The translations under genes were made by a program, and so were the position numbers. The notes beneath the pieces are model-generated. The model made no database searches and was not told the DNA's origin. It worked only from the letters and a program-made list of their open reading frames with translations. DNA of 64,000 nt from the NCBI RefSeq assembly GCF_022788655.1, contig NZ_CP084951.1, forward strand, positions 1,240,001 to 1,304,000, given 5' to 3'. Source of the stretch: Sulfitobacter indolifex. Its GTDB lineage: Bacteria > Pseudomonadota > Alphaproteobacteria > Rhodobacterales > Rhodobacteraceae. This document shows positions 50,704 to 57,242 of this stretch, one piece after another; within the stretch, counting starts at the first letter, position 1; each line of letters begins with the position of its first letter.

Positions 50704-50787
50704 GCCCAAGTGGCGGAATGGTAGACGCAGGGGATTCAAAATCCCCCGCCGCGAGGCGTGCCGGTTCGAGTCCGGCCTTGGGTACCA
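50704..50787 (+). tRNA. tRNA-Leu (CAA)
   Basis: Type II tRNA with long variable arm: acceptor GCCCAAG/CTTGGGT, anticodon stem GGGGA/TCCCC with loop TTCAAAA giving anticodon CAA, variable arm GCCGCGAGGCGT, T-arm GGTTCGAGTCC, CCA encoded. A small hairpin CCTTGT/ACAAGG follows directly. It marks the left edge of the accessory region; tRNA-Leu genes are common integration targets, but no 3'-end duplicate was found at the right edge. Confidence 0.95.
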
Positions 50788-51535: not shown

Positions 51536-51835
51536 ATGATTGCGAATATGGCGAATTTCAGTAAGCTAAGCCCGCAGGCCAAAAAAGCACTGATCCTAGC
51601 GACAGATGCACCAGTTCAGGTCACAGCACTTGTGGAGCTGTCAGCTGGCTATGACGCAGAAACCGATTTGCCCCTGAAAGCGCTTGATGCCACTTTGCAA
51701 GGCTGGAGCACGCATAGCCGCATCGTAACGTTAAAACTGCCATCAAGCCATCTCGGAAATTTGGCGGAAACACGAGGCGTTACATACGTCGAGCTTGGCG
51801 AAACTCTGGCCAACCCGAGTGATCCGCCGAATTGA
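51536..51835 (+). CDS. Free-standing protein resembling a subtilase (I9-type) propeptide
   Basis: 99 residues (95 if the ATG at 51548 is used). The central part (VTALVELSAGYDAET, then SRIVTLKLPSSHLGNLAETRG, VTYVELGE) has the beta-alpha-beta pattern and spacing of subtilase propeptides. It lines up with the N-terminal region of the subtilase encoded just downstream on the opposite strand (RVLIELKSS, then YSATVALSHLADLEQE, VDAIEAG). It converges on that gene with a 42-bp gap. It has no signal peptide. Likely a trans-acting inhibitor or folding aid for the protease; this is inference from the resemblance and position. A good ribosome binding site was not seen. Confidence 0.6.
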   Translation: MIANMANFSKLSPQAKKALILATDAPVQVTALVELSAGYDAETDLPLKALDATLQGWSTHSRIVTLKLPSSHLGNLAETRGVTYVELGETLANPSDPPN

Positions 51836-51877
51836 GGGCTTCCACCTTTAACAAGTGCTTAAGACCGTCGACCTCAC

Positions 51878-53791
51878 TCAACTGGTAGCTGACTGACCGG
51901 ACTGGTTGGGGTTCCGTAGTAGTGCGAGAGCCCTTTGCGCGTTAATTCGCCCATATCCCCACGAAATGTCAAAATCGGTTACGCCGTCAGGATTATCGGC
52001 GGTTGCTTCGAGTATTCTTGCGGCCTGTGCAGCACTCAGATCAGGCATTTCCTCGAAAAGCAGGGCGACGATTCCCGCGACATGCGGGGCAGCCATGCTG
52101 GTCCCTGACTTACTCACGCGCATCGGATGCATGCCACCGTTTCCGTCGGGCCGACCACCAAAAGAACAAGCCGCAATAACGGCAGTGCCGGGGGCTGCTA
52201 TCTCGGGTTTATGAAGCCCGTTCCGGGTCGGTCCCCGACTCGAACTGTCATTGGGTGCGAGAAGCCTGTGATCATAATTTGCCACTGCCAGCGCGCGGTG
52301 CGTTGTTGCAGGGGTTCCAAGTGTACTGACTGGGTCAAAATCCGAACCGACGAAGAACGATTGGTCGGCGAAATTATTGTTGGGATCGCGCGTGTCACGC
52401 TCGATCCAAGCATCAAACCGCCCGTCTGCAGCTTCCAGAGCTTCAATCTCAACGCGCCACTCACCCGGCGTCACGGATTGCCCTATGCCAGCCGGTTCTA
52501 TCTCGATATAGATACGACTGTTCCCGTTCAACGTCGTGAATCTCTCAGAGTCGAGGAACACGTTTGATGTTGCGTTCAATTGCACAAGCAGTGGTGTGCC
52601 ATCCGGCTCTACTGACGTAGCTGTATTTCCCAGCGGGTCGGTCAATGTGACGCGAAATCTGTCGCGACTCGAATACCATATTTCCATCTCGCTCGGCGTG
52701 CGGTCGATGCCCGAGCCGGTGCTTCCTCCATTGGGAACGGGCATGCCTCCACCGACTTTCCAACGCAACGTGCGTGTGTCGCCTTGTGCAAGCGTCCCTG
52801 ATGCGTGGCCACGCCAGACGTGTTCGTTGCCCGCGGCACTCACAAAAGCACGCCCGCTTGGTACAACCAGCCGGTCAATTGCGCGCTCGACAATGCTTTC
52901 ACCATCGTGGCTGCCACCGTTCTGGCCGAGGCTCATATTGATGACGCAGGGCATCTGCATTTCCTGCGCCTTGTGGAAAATATAGGCGACCGCATCCGCT
53001 ACGTTACTGGAGTCAGTGAAGCTAGTGCTCTGATCGCCCGAATTCGGCTGCACAAAAATAATCGTGGCACCGGGTGCTGCACCGATGAAACGCCCAGCCG
53101 GAAAAGCTGCATCACTCGATCTCCCGTTCCCAACGGCGGTACTGGCGACATGCGTGCCATGCGATGCGACCCCGGGGTCGTGACGAATTGCCTGAAATGG
53201 ATTGCTGGAACCAAGCGCCGCATCAATGTCGGCGCGGCTGTATTCTGTCCCATATGGAAAGTCGTTTGGCTGCGCTTCTCCAGCCCGGGGTACGAGCCTC
53301 TGATCCCAAAGAAAAGCAGCCCTTGAACTGCCGTCCGCATTGCGAAAATCATCCAGCGTAAAATCAAACCCAAAATCGATTATCCCGACAATCACGCCTT
53401 CACCAGTGCGCCCTGTTGCCGTCCCGCTTCCCGTATGTACGATGTCGGCACGCGTCTCTGACAGCGACGTGTCCAGCATTGGATACCAGCGCCGCCCCGC
53501 TTCAATCGCGTCGACCTCTACTTCTTGCTCAAGGTCGGCGAGGTGCGACAGGGCAACCGTGGCTGAATAGATGTTTCCGGAAACATGAGATAAGGATACA
53601 TTCTGAAGTTCATCGATTAGCTCTGATGATTTCAGTTCGATCAACACGCGTTTGGTGATTTGGTCCGCCGTTGGTGTCTCGCTGCTGGCAGCCACTTCGC
53701 CACGTTCAATGGCCATCGACATCATTTCACGTTGATCTTGACCTGCCATCAGTCTGCGTAGGCGCGGATCGACTTTCTTTCTGTCTCGCAT
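51878..53791 (-). CDS. Subtilisin-like serine peptidase (S8 family), no signal peptide
   Basis: 637 residues; GGGAGG lies 5 bp before the ATG. Residues about 45-105 form a propeptide-like domain. The catalytic triad is complete: Asp139 in VGIIDFGFDF, His211 in ASHGTHVAS and Ser565 in SGTSMAAPHVAG. Between His and Ser there is an insert of about 120 residues (about 335-470) with a beta-rich look that could be an added domain. No signal peptide or anchor is seen, so the enzyme is cytoplasmic or leaves the cell by a route without a cleaved signal. It starts 60 bp after the heme peroxidase stop, on the same strand, so the two form an operon. Confidence 0.9.
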   Translation of the reverse strand: MRDRKKVDPRLRRLMAGQDQREMMSMAIERGEVAASSETPTADQITKRVLIELKSSELIDELQNVSLSHVSGNIYSATVALSHLADLEQEVEVDAIEAGRRWYPMLDTSLSETRADIVHTGSGTATGRTGEGVIVGIIDFGFDFTLDDFRNADGSSRAAFLWDQRLVPRAGEAQPNDFPYGTEYSRADIDAALGSSNPFQAIRHDPGVASHGTHVASTAVGNGRSSDAAFPAGRFIGAAPGATIIFVQPNSGDQSTSFTDSSNVADAVAYIFHKAQEMQMPCVINMSLGQNGGSHDGESIVERAIDRLVVPSGRAFVSAAGNEHVWRGHASGTLAQGDTRTLRWKVGGGMPVPNGGSTGSGIDRTPSEMEIWYSSRDRFRVTLTDPLGNTATSVEPDGTPLLVQLNATSNVFLDSERFTTLNGNSRIYIEIEPAGIGQSVTPGEWRVEIEALEAADGRFDAWIERDTRDPNNNFADQSFFVGSDFDPVSTLGTPATTHRALAVANYDHRLLAPNDSSSRGPTRNGLHKPEIAAPGTAVIAACSFGGRPDGNGGMHPMRVSKSGTSMAAPHVAGIVALLFEEMPDLSAAQAARILEATADNPDGVTDFDISWGYGRINAQRALALLRNPNQSGQSATS

Positions 53792-53850
53792 GAAAACCTC
53801 CCGGTTAGTGCAACGAAAGCGCGATCAACAATCGCACCGTCAGAAGTAGA

Positions 53851-55656
53851 TCACTCCAAAACAAGGGCGAATTTCATCCACTGCTCTATTGTGTCGATCG
53901 GGGTATCGTCCGGCATGCGGAGCGGAGAGTGCGTTGGTCCGAATTCCAGCGACAATGCACTTTCTGGATCATCAAGCAGTGTTGCAATGAAAGTACTTGC
54001 AACGATCCAGCTACCGACCTCGCCCAGATGCTGTCCACCGGCTCCTTCCCCTTCTGCAAGACAGTAGAACCACAAGGGTGTGCGTTCGTGTAGTCGCGCC
54101 GTGCTGTTTTCAAGGAAGTTTTTCAGATCTGGCTTGTTGTCCAGTTTGTCGCCGATATTGGCAATCGGGGGTGAATTGACCGCACCGATAGACTTCAGAT
54201 GGGCGTGTAAGGCCTGGCCCGTGGGCAACCGCAGGCTTAAGCCACGCCGCAGATTACGCCGGGCAAGTTGACGGAACAGTTTGTGTAAGTCGGAACCGGG
54301 CGGAAAATCTCCTCCTTCTTTGATCATGTCGCCGAGCGGCGGTGCAATCTGGGTGTCAATTGCCCGGGCTACGCGTGCTGCGATGTTATCCGAATTGTCC
54401 GGGTCGGCGTTAACAAAACGATCCCAGTCGATGATCCAGTTCTCCGGGAGACGCGAATGACCGTTCATTGAGCCGCCACCCGTAAAATCGAACAGCAACT
54501 CAAAGGATGCGTCTCCAAGCAGCCCGCCGGGACGTCCGAAGTTTTTGTTGTAGTCGTATGAATTGCGCACCATCGTGTGTCCGAACCTAAAGGCCGCAAC
54601 TGAAAATTCTAAAGGCAACACATTGCCCAGAGTTGTGCCGCCGTTGCGATCATTGTAGGCCGCGCGAAATTCAAAGAAATGTCTGGCGCGGTTTGCAAGA
54701 ACAGCATCCACAACCGCTGGATCACAAATGCGCTTCAGGTATCCGTCGACAATAAGCCATTGGTAATGAAGCTTCGTCAGCGTTTTGGCGGAATGAAAGT
54801 CCGCAATCCAGCCGGTATCATGTGTGTTGAGATAGTCCACGGCTTTGTTGTGAAACCGAAGAAAGCTCAGATGAAATTGCGCAATGATGAGATTTTCGTC
54901 GTTGCGCATGTCGCCGATGATGGCGCGCTTGTCCAATCCAACTTGAAATTTCTGGAATTCCACGGCGCTGAGCCGGTTTTGAATAAGCGACAGATAGGCA
55001 TCTCGCACTTTCTGTTCGACTTGCGCAAAACGGGGTAAGTCGCGATGGTGATCAAGACCGTCAGGGATCGGTCCAGTCGTGGCTCCTCCTGTCTCACAGG
55101 TGCCCACACGCATCTTTTCCGGATGGTTAGGATGTCGCATCCCGGAAATCACGGTGCCAGTTGCCGGAGGAATGTTCGCACCAATGGCTAATCCGCCATA
55201 TACACTATCCAGATCAAAGCGCGGGCTGCGGGCGTTTTTCAGTTCGGCTTCGATTTCCGCGGTCGATTTGGTGGGTAGCGCAGTTTCGATCCGGGAAATT
55301 GTTGTTTCGCGGTCGGTCCGCGCGGTCAGCTCGTGGTCAAGAAATTGGCCCCAATAGGTTAACACGGTAGGGAGGGACGAGTCTGCAGTGACAGTAGGAT
55401 CAGCGGTTTGCGGTGGCGGCGGATTGGGGGCGTTTGGCACCATCCGGTCTCCCAGCTCGTCCAGCTCAGCCAGTACGTTATCGGGCAGATAATCTCCCGG
55501 ATTGCCCGAGGGTGGAAACAAGAATCCAAAATCTGCAGCCTCGTCGACTGCCGTGTCGGCAACCTCTGGCAGAAGGGCATCGGTCGTAATATCGGCGCGT
55601 GGTGCAGGTTGGGCAGTGCGACGTTCACCGCCGTGCGTTTGAATCACTAATGTCAT
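53851..55656 (-). CDS. Animal-type heme peroxidase (peroxicin-like)
   Basis: 601 residues from the ATG at 55656, which has GAGG upstream; an ATG at 55668 is in frame. All hallmark residues of the peroxidase-cyclooxygenase superfamily are present (numbering from 55656): Asp107-His108 in YWGQFLDHELT (distal histidine and heme-linked aspartate), Arg251 and Glu254 in IGDMRNDENLII (catalytic arginine and heme-linked glutamate), and the proximal His360 in AFRFGHTMVRNS. An active heme enzyme oxidising halides or organics with peroxide is expected. There is no signal peptide. Operon with the subtilase downstream. Bacterial members are uncommon; the location in an island points to lateral gain. Confidence 0.9.
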   Translation of the reverse strand: MTLVIQTHGGERRTAQPAPRADITTDALLPEVADTAVDEAADFGFLFPPSGNPGDYLPDNVLAELDELGDRMVPNAPNPPPPQTADPTVTADSSLPTVLTYWGQFLDHELTARTDRETTISRIETALPTKSTAEIEAELKNARSPRFDLDSVYGGLAIGANIPPATGTVISGMRHPNHPEKMRVGTCETGGATTGPIPDGLDHHRDLPRFAQVEQKVRDAYLSLIQNRLSAVEFQKFQVGLDKRAIIGDMRNDENLIIAQFHLSFLRFHNKAVDYLNTHDTGWIADFHSAKTLTKLHYQWLIVDGYLKRICDPAVVDAVLANRARHFFEFRAAYNDRNGGTTLGNVLPLEFSVAAFRFGHTMVRNSYDYNKNFGRPGGLLGDASFELLFDFTGGGSMNGHSRLPENWIIDWDRFVNADPDNSDNIAARVARAIDTQIAPPLGDMIKEGGDFPPGSDLHKLFRQLARRNLRRGLSLRLPTGQALHAHLKSIGAVNSPPIANIGDKLDNKPDLKNFLENSTARLHERTPLWFYCLAEGEGAGGQHLGEVGSWIVASTFIATLLDDPESALSLEFGPTHSPLRMPDDTPIDTIEQWMKFALVLE

Positions 55657-55668
55657 ACCAAACCTCAT

Positions 55669-56736: not shown

Positions 56737-57002
56737 TTGATCTTCCTCCGCTCCATACAAGCATAGCACACTTCGACTAAGCCCTGTTATCTTCGATGTG
56801 AACAACTTGATTGCTGGCTGCAGGCTTTGGGCTAGACGCGGTATTTCTTCACAAACAGTGGCAACCTGACTTTCGCTGCAATTGCGAGAGCGGGCATTTG
56901 GTTGGCTATCTTGGCGGGCGCATGCCGGCATCCAAGTTGACACATGATCATGACAAGGGGACGCCCAACGACAAGCAACGGGTCAGGTATGTGGAAAAAG
57001 CG

Positions 57003-57118
57003 ATGGCGTCGAGAATTCTCTCACTCTCCGGCGGCGGGTACATGGGCTTATACACGGCGGCAGTGTTGGCTGGGCTAGAGGAACAATGGGGTGATAGTCT
57101 CTATAAGAAGTTTGATCG
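57003..57118 (+). pseudogene. N-terminal fragment of a patatin-like phospholipase
   Basis: From the ATG at 57003 the frame reads SRILSLSGGGYMGLYTAAVLAGLEEQ..., the glycine-rich oxyanion motif and first helix of patatin phospholipases. It reaches KKFD, where the family continues with LIAGTSIGG (the nucleophile elbow). Here it is cut off at about 57,118 and the frame continues into unrelated antisense-glucokinase sequence to a stop at 57239. The nucleophile serine is lost, so it cannot be active. The sequence start resembles the phospholipase effectors of CBASS defence systems, but no cyclase gene is present. Remnant only. Confidence 0.75.
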
Positions 57119-57242
57119 CGTCGATGCTTGCCCAGTCCTCATTCGCATTTCTCTTGACGGAGCCAGCCGTCAGGTTGCCCGCCTGGCTAAGCGCCAGACG
57201 GGCATTGGTGCCCCCGATATCCGCAACAAGACGCGGTGACAT
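57118..57242 (-). pseudogene. glk: 5' fragment of glucokinase, last gene of the glucose operon
   Basis: The ATG at 57242 overlaps the stop of the ABC ATPase gene (TGATG). The frame reads SPRLVADIGGTNARLALS, the phosphate-binding start of glucokinases. About 30 codons in, a one-base shift is needed to continue into NEDWASID, which again looks like glucokinase. Homology then ends at about 57,118, where the patatin fragment begins on the other strand. More than nine-tenths of the gene is missing. Glucose entering by this transporter would need another kinase. Confidence 0.75.

Follow-up and report, generated by a model that had tools for sequence, protein, structure and literature searches.

Neutrophils deploy an oxidant-making heme peroxidase, myeloperoxidase (MPO), together with serine proteases. 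Among the top-ranked literature matches, none described a bacterium in which a heme peroxidase is paired with a subtilase. Here, we describe such a pair in a 64,000-nucleotide stretch of the Sulfitobacter indolifex genome (NZ_CP084951.1, positions 1,240,001 to 1,304,000; hereafter the window), where a peroxidase gene, an S8 subtilase gene and a facing gene for a 99-residue protein occupy positions 51536 to 55668. Several described systems resemble this locus in part. System 3 of Kaur et al. (2020) joins a trypsin-like peptidase to a NucA endonuclease, sometimes with an S8 domain in the same polypeptide, occurs mostly in alphaproteobacteria, and is proposed to deploy its nuclease through a proteolytic cascade; in the main text of that paper, the word “peroxidase” is absent. 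In Plasmodium, SUB1-ProM is a stand-alone subtilisin propeptide-like inhibitor encoded beside subtilisin genes, for which inhibition has been shown. Bacterial members of the peroxidase-cyclooxygenase superfamily have been classified, among others, as peroxicins and peroxidockerins (PMC4420034), and in humans a subtilisin-like convertase processes proMPO (PMC5437232).

The comparison with System 3 is closest in a sister locus, L111, which carries NucA and trypsin domains beside a peroxidase of the same family and thus joins the System 3 architecture to the peroxidase family. The window locus itself shows neither a Trypsin nor a NucA domain in the seven open reading frames (ORFs) scanned with Pfam, which places it outside System 3; by analogy, it may work in a similar way. 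With SUB1-ProM, it shares a free-standing propeptide-like gene adjoining a subtilase gene, and this is the nearest precedent that we found for such an arrangement. However, SUB1-ProM is eukaryotic and a demonstrated inhibitor, and the 99-residue protein is likened to it by description, not by sequence. The clostridial germination subtilases CspB/CspA/CspC are 27% identical to the window subtilase and belong to another phylum. Peroxicins and peroxidockerins, such as LspPOX, share with the window peroxidase a distal Gln/Asp/His set, an Arg/Glu pair and a proximal His. We take this motif list to be that of the superfamily; its positions in the window peroxidase come from our alignments. The novelty of this peroxidase is its neighbours and not the enzyme itself. 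Unlike proMPO, the bacterial peroxidases have no comparable N-terminal pro-region, and we therefore do not favour that analogy. The neutrophil pairing likewise serves as an analogy only, with no claim of common ancestry.

Our preferred interpretation, which we consider reasonably probable without being secure, is that the locus is a horizontally acquired cassette of an MPO-type peroxidase and a self-inhibited subtilase, with the small gene encoding a propeptide that would act in trans. The best reading of the sequences and models is a mobile, protease-linked oxidative effector module, in which the small protein probably restrains (or helps fold) the subtilase. The features on which this reading draws are as follows.

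50704..50787, + strand: tRNA-Leu (caa), found with ARAGORN; left edge of the presumed island
51536..51835, + strand: free-standing subtilase-propeptide-like protein, 99 residues; likely true start 51548 (Met5); fold model and profile match to an S8 prodomain
51878..53791, – strand: S8 subtilase, CspB-like, 637 residues; triad Asp139/His211/Ser565 plus Asn322
53477..53791, – strand: N-terminal stretch (about residues 1-105) presumed to be the subtilase's cis prodomain; succession of strands and helices in the model; small protein aligns to residues 73-103
53851..55668, – strand: heme peroxidase of the peroxidase-cyclooxygenase superfamily, 605 residues; likely true start 55656; PF03098, MPO alignment and active-site conservation
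56997..57119, + strand: N-terminal fragment of a CBASS-type phospholipase, 35-41 codons; PADLOC PDLC00757 (5.9e-12) and NCBIfam NF041079 (4e-10)

The trio of peroxidase, S8 subtilase and facing small protein, noticed in an earlier sequence-only reading of this DNA, was confirmed: all three frames are intact in the ORF list, and the two enzymes score above their profile cut-offs. Both enzyme genes share one strand, the peroxidase first, with a gap of 59 bases from its stop to the subtilase start, and the small gene converges with the subtilase at a stop-to-stop distance of 42 bases. Frames and stops stood as first given, whereas two starts probably shift inwards: both diverged relatives of the small protein begin at its Met5 (51548), and 17 of 19 peroxidase relatives at Met5 of the window peroxidase (55656). 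As the same reading had stated, none of the three proteins has an evident signal peptide, judged by eye.

Assignment of the peroxidase is based on a PF03098 score of 52.5 bits (cut-off 25) and on its active site. A sequence search of the PDB returned only a weak MPO match (E 0.23), and this alignment places Q108, D111, H112, R255, E258 and H364 on the motifs WGQ-LDH, GD-R--E and F-Y/F-GH. In 52 aligned peroxidase rows including the window, H112, R255 and H364 occur without exception; Q108, D111 and E258 are each kept in 51, the departures being in L036 and L122; all six residues are present in 50 rows, that of the window among them. At what we take to be the position of the sulfonium-linked Met of MPO, the aligned window residue is Asn, so that the window enzyme would have at most two ester heme links. 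The family is not rare in bacteria, contrary to what had been assumed for the superfamily: 2035 matches were obtained among 7995 scored candidates, and the named rows among the 120 matches listed are alphaproteobacterial. In its members, a short, conserved N-terminal segment leads almost directly into the catalytic domain, and a long pro-region is absent from most rows. An N-terminal QSHGG motif was considered as an export signal, but this reading was abandoned, as the motif could just as well mark where the domain's structure begins. A virus-borne system was rejected as well: in viral contigs, three stretches fit a pattern, of which none could be confirmed as related to the peroxidase, and phage records gave no peroxidase match. 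No role was found assigned to this family.

The subtilase matches PF00082 with 128 bits and carries Asp139, His211, Asn322 and Ser565; the motifs of the catalytic triad are invariant across a 24-row alignment. The order of strands and helices at the N-terminus of its model fits an I9-type prodomain, and the rows of the fold search cover only residues 105-631. Its family gave 918 database matches, and again no assigned role was found. It is the sole S8 gene that Pfam detects in the source genome, both matched stretches being its own. A close subtilase is absent from 61 other species of the genus, three of which have distant S8 matches. At another locus (L126:4811-9102, – strand), a 1019-residue subtilase, 41% identical to that of the window over the matched part, is directly followed by a 412-residue protein with a patatin-like motif (by eye).

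The 99-residue protein had been read as resembling the subtilase's own propeptide, and its structure prediction bears this out. AlphaFold2 predicts a beta-alpha-beta-beta-alpha-beta fold with a predicted local distance difference test score (pLDDT) of 79 in the best of five models, and a fold search with this model ranks subtilisin propeptides first. In a profile comparison, it aligns with the prodomain of the family to which the neighbouring subtilase belongs, at subtilase residues 73-103; none of 200 column shuffles (first five columns fixed) reached the observed score, and the reversed profile scored 12.8. BLASTP of the small protein against the subtilase gave nothing significant (E 30), so that their kinship is visible through profile comparison and fold alone. 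Against Pfam at E ≤ 1, the protein has a single sub-threshold match to an unrelated family. We therefore liken it to I9 inhibitors and do not file it in that family, as it matches no curated one. Taken together, fold and prodomain similarity support a propeptide-like nature of the small protein, as predicted from sequence and model.

Conservation of the gene neighbourhood was assessed in relatives of the peroxidase. A family sample of 248 genomes, 46 of which had a match, was searched; a class-wide sample, in which 3 of 385 genomes had a match at E ≤ 1e-60, was excluded from the neighbour statistics. The neighbour set comprises 46 peroxidase loci (47 minus L048, 22% identical), in which S8 genes were sought within 6 kb, some loci having flanks shorter than that. 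Gene calls around these loci are rough, being the longest or codon-scored ORFs. Loci L110-L114 lie on the same contigs as L002, L003, L008, L022 and L035 and were counted once, and the trypsin-like matches of L022 (49 bits at 3.3 kb; 290 bits at 5.6 kb on the opposite strand) were not taken as neighbours. An S8 gene is located at most 3.1 kb from the peroxidase in 22 of the 46 loci. L010 and L037 have an adjoining trypsin fusion in place of S8, that of L010 carrying an Exo_endo_phos domain. The gap between peroxidase and S8 is only 64-132 bases in L029, L030, L032-L035 and L045, and the S8 gene is placed upstream, downstream or divergent to the peroxidase.

These partners are not one conserved subtilase. 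Grouped by best seed they form eight types, with at most 37% identity between any two, and, more loosely, four groups (the window's type with types 1 and 6; types 3, 4 and 5 with the 514-residue protein of L028; type 2; type 7). Pfam confirms one representative of each type except that of L122, whose type-mates L115, L118 and L028 pass. On the peroxidase tree (L037 left out as shorter than 500 residues, L044 trimmed to its last 620), the labels S8 type, trypsin fusion or none require 13 changes; the minimum is 9, and shuffled labels require 27. At the genome level, counted in the 17 best-scoring of the 46 matching genomes, 13 contain any Pfam S8 match (1-3 matched stretches each), and a pair within 3.1 kb occurs in eight: G000, G055, G140, G006, G237, G171, G063 and G004; the pairs in three of these (G140, G006 and G237) correspond to loci L003, L008 and L035. 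With one or two S8 genes per ~4.3 Mb, the probability of chance pairing in any one genome is, by our estimate, well below 1%. In two metagenomic relatives, the peroxidase and subtilase clusters share their longest-contig sizes (8578 and 5794 bases), and the identities run in parallel (94/91% and 78/76% for peroxidase/subtilase), consistent with the pair travelling together. On this sequence evidence, the peroxidase-subtilase association appears genuine. The recurrent unit is a peroxidase plus some serine protease, mostly outside the family of the window subtilase, and the pairing is broader than the sequence-only reading knew.

The small protein does not share this recurrence. It has three database matches, its own cluster included, and the contigs that carry its relatives, at 767 and 1002 bases, leave no room to show linkage. 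No match was found in 61 other species of the genus (62 genomes searched) or in plasmid records. On these searches, the trio is rejected as a conserved three-gene unit; of the linkage first proposed, the peroxidase-subtilase part stands and the recurrent trio does not.

Several lineages have in common a larger cassette of a TPR-type regulator, a PAP2/vanadium-haloperoxidase-like enzyme, an S8 protease and the peroxidase, to which some add trypsin-like proteases carrying a fused lipase or nuclease. Marivita and Thalassobacter show the order TPR regulator, glycine-repeat PAP2, S8, peroxidase and an alpha/beta-hydrolase-trypsin fusion, and Marivita-type loci have one further trypsin. In Loktanella and an uncultured relative, regulator, PAP2 and S8 are divergent from the peroxidase. 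G063, G171, G004 and Ahrensia hold relatives of the cassette set with another S8 type, the peroxidase being far diverged in the first three. A Palleronia plasmid, annotated independently, encodes a hypothetical protein matching the regulator seeds, PAP2, S8, heme peroxidase and a C1 peptidase. We take the regulator to be BTAD-type from its SARP-like appearance; Pfam recognises TPR only, plus a sub-cut-off winged-helix Trans_reg_C in L008. Three PAP2 seeds and the Palleronia PAP2 carry all three active-site motifs, which we take to be common to acid phosphatases and vanadium haloperoxidases, so that either activity is possible for these proteins. Three PAP2/vanadium-haloperoxidase-like proteins start with long GGF/GGV repeats (L032:1832-2947, L122:11619-12818 and L114:5038-6135).

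Other loci vary this theme. G055, of the same genus as the window, has a peroxidase with a different S8, in the order peroxidase, amidohydrolase, matrixin-like peptidase, S8 and trypsin. The sister locus mentioned above encodes a 1263-residue Trypsin-Endonuclease_NS-S8 fusion (L111:9508-13296, + strand) 118 bases past the peroxidase. In Microvirga, a Trypsin-Endonuclease I-DUF1353 fusion lies directly 3′ of the peroxidase (L024, 9901-12696, + strand). DUF1353 genes also sit 5′ of S8 genes on the Rhizobium plasmids L159 and L163. Peroxidase relatives occur in 32 plasmid records, and one of the three loci inspected contains the cassette. Relatives of the window subtilase occur in 79 plasmid records; in three of the seven inspected (Rhizobium L156, L159 and L163), an MBL-fold gene directly follows S8 with a tyrosinase, GMC or LodA/GoxA oxidase nearby, and the S8 locus of L156 is close to a Shedu gene.

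For the tRNA-side setting, 20 regions from the genus, each 6-9.6 kb long and adjoining DedA, were compared. The tRNA-Leu gene of the window also adjoins this DedA gene in 19 of them, and in L135, another species, a phage integrase gene (PF00589; 904-1944, – strand) is next to it. Phage-like genes follow beyond this integrase, L136 being similar, and the cargo beside tRNA-Leu differs in other genus regions (all by eye). Peroxidase, subtilase and small protein have no phmmer match (E ≤ 1e-3) in any of the 20 regions. The conserved tRNA, the integrase, the differing cargo and the absence of the trio suggest that this position receives mobile genes as cargo, some of them related to defence. At the other side, the frame of the CBASS-type phospholipase fragment runs on into unrelated sequence near a resident ABC-transporter gene. 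We presume this to be the right island edge, an apparent remnant of a defence system; since a clean empty site could not be defined among the 20 regions, the edge is placed presumptively. A full CBASS is not present: just 35-41 effector codons remain, and no cyclase was found among the window ORFs scanned.

In the module that we propose, the peroxidase would be the oxidative effector, converting H2O2 to hypohalous acid or radicals, and the subtilase would be a co-effector or an activating protease, kept in check by both its cis prodomain and the small protein. The whole would serve conflict with a phage, invader or rival rather than metabolism. Such a role in defence or competition is plausible, because the locus lies in a tRNA-side island with a CBASS-lipase fragment and has a sister locus with trypsin, NucA and S8. 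We infer this function from sequence with moderate confidence, and the interpretation given in the sequence-only reading is, overall, partly supported.

A number of observations weigh against this proposal. The case for a conflict role comes from neighbouring genes alone. A peroxidase devoid of a signal peptide could serve peroxide removal too, the scanned window ORFs include no recognisable sensor or receptor, and no secretion route is visible. For the small protein, a single model is confident, the other four having pLDDT values of 43-51; Foldseek gave no match at E ≤ 0.001, Pfam Inhibitor_I9 is not matched, and the protein is almost private to the source lineage. The counts of S8 and trypsin neighbours come from hidden Markov models built on neighbours first found by motif and phmmer, and are thus not blind. 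No S8 neighbour was found in 24 of the 46 loci, and in 14 of 38 close relatives both S8 and an adjacent trypsin fusion are missing; three of these 14 are truncated on one side by a contig end no more than 1.3 kb away. The S8 of L122 is below the Pfam cut-off (20.5 vs 21.8 bits). Nine of the 17 genomes show no pair, including G007, which ends 1.2 kb past the peroxidase, and the adjacent S8 of G237, G063 and G004 was found by phmmer and missed by the genome-wide Pfam search. Finally, two of the three inspected plasmid peroxidase loci have no annotated protease, and four of the seven inspected subtilase plasmids have no MBL-fold/oxidase partner.

Other explanations have to be weighed against the same evidence. 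Subtilisin propeptides both inhibit and assist folding, and fold and profile evidence cannot tell an inhibitor from a chaperone. The small protein could thus be a trans-acting folding chaperone for the subtilase or another S8 protein and not an inhibitor. However, the subtilase appears to retain its own prodomain, which makes a second folding aid seem unnecessary, and the convergent orientation permits separate expression, as an inhibitor would require; we regard the chaperone as unlikely, though a serious contender. It had also been suggested that the protease cuts or releases the peroxidase. The recurrent pairing with S8 genes and the proMPO precedent (PMC5437232) would agree with a subtilase that processes the peroxidase, but the family starts near the catalytic domain, most rows have no long pro-region, and the protease types are interchangeable, with only a trypsin fusion at two loci. 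Cleavage is unsupported by sequence, because there is no proMPO-like pro-region and because differing, sometimes divergent proteases take the neighbour's place, and we consider such maturation improbable.

Peroxidase and subtilase could also be functionally unlinked passengers of the same kinds of mobile islands, as the tRNA site, the CBASS fragment and the occurrence on plasmids would allow. This appears distinctly improbable, given that most of the 17 genomes have only one or two S8 genes and yet the genes are immediately adjacent (64-132 bases), that different S8 types adjoin the peroxidase in several lineages, and that identities run in parallel in the two metagenomic relatives. A housekeeping pair, with the peroxidase disposing of H2O2 and the protease of oxidised protein, would suit the absence of signal peptides evident by eye, the ability of peroxidases to detoxify peroxide and the two plasmid peroxidase loci with no annotated protease. 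Patchy distribution, with close subtilase and small gene absent from 61 other species of the genus, and sister cassettes that hold nuclease, hydrolase and PAP2 enzymes make it highly improbable.

Extending the protease-linked effector module to the sister cassettes, we tentatively, and with considerable doubt, envisage a widespread alphaproteobacterial class of protease-gated oxidative-burst systems, by analogy with the joint use of MPO and serine proteases in neutrophils. Here, a regulator of the BTAD/TPR type, proteases (S8, trypsin-like or papain-like) and oxidant enzymes (heme peroxidase, PAP2/vanadium-haloperoxidase-like; elsewhere perhaps tyrosinase, GMC or LodA oxidases) would act together against invaders or rivals, and the detached propeptide would be the safety catch in this locus.

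If our interpretation is correct, heme peroxidase would be added to nucleases, lipases and proteases as an effector of bacterial protease-linked conflict systems, and the arrangement would be a possible bacterial counterpart of the peroxidase-protease pairing in animal innate immunity. The locus would also make a free-standing subtilisin propeptide open to testing in a bacterium, and a peroxidase family to which we found no role assigned would gain a function.
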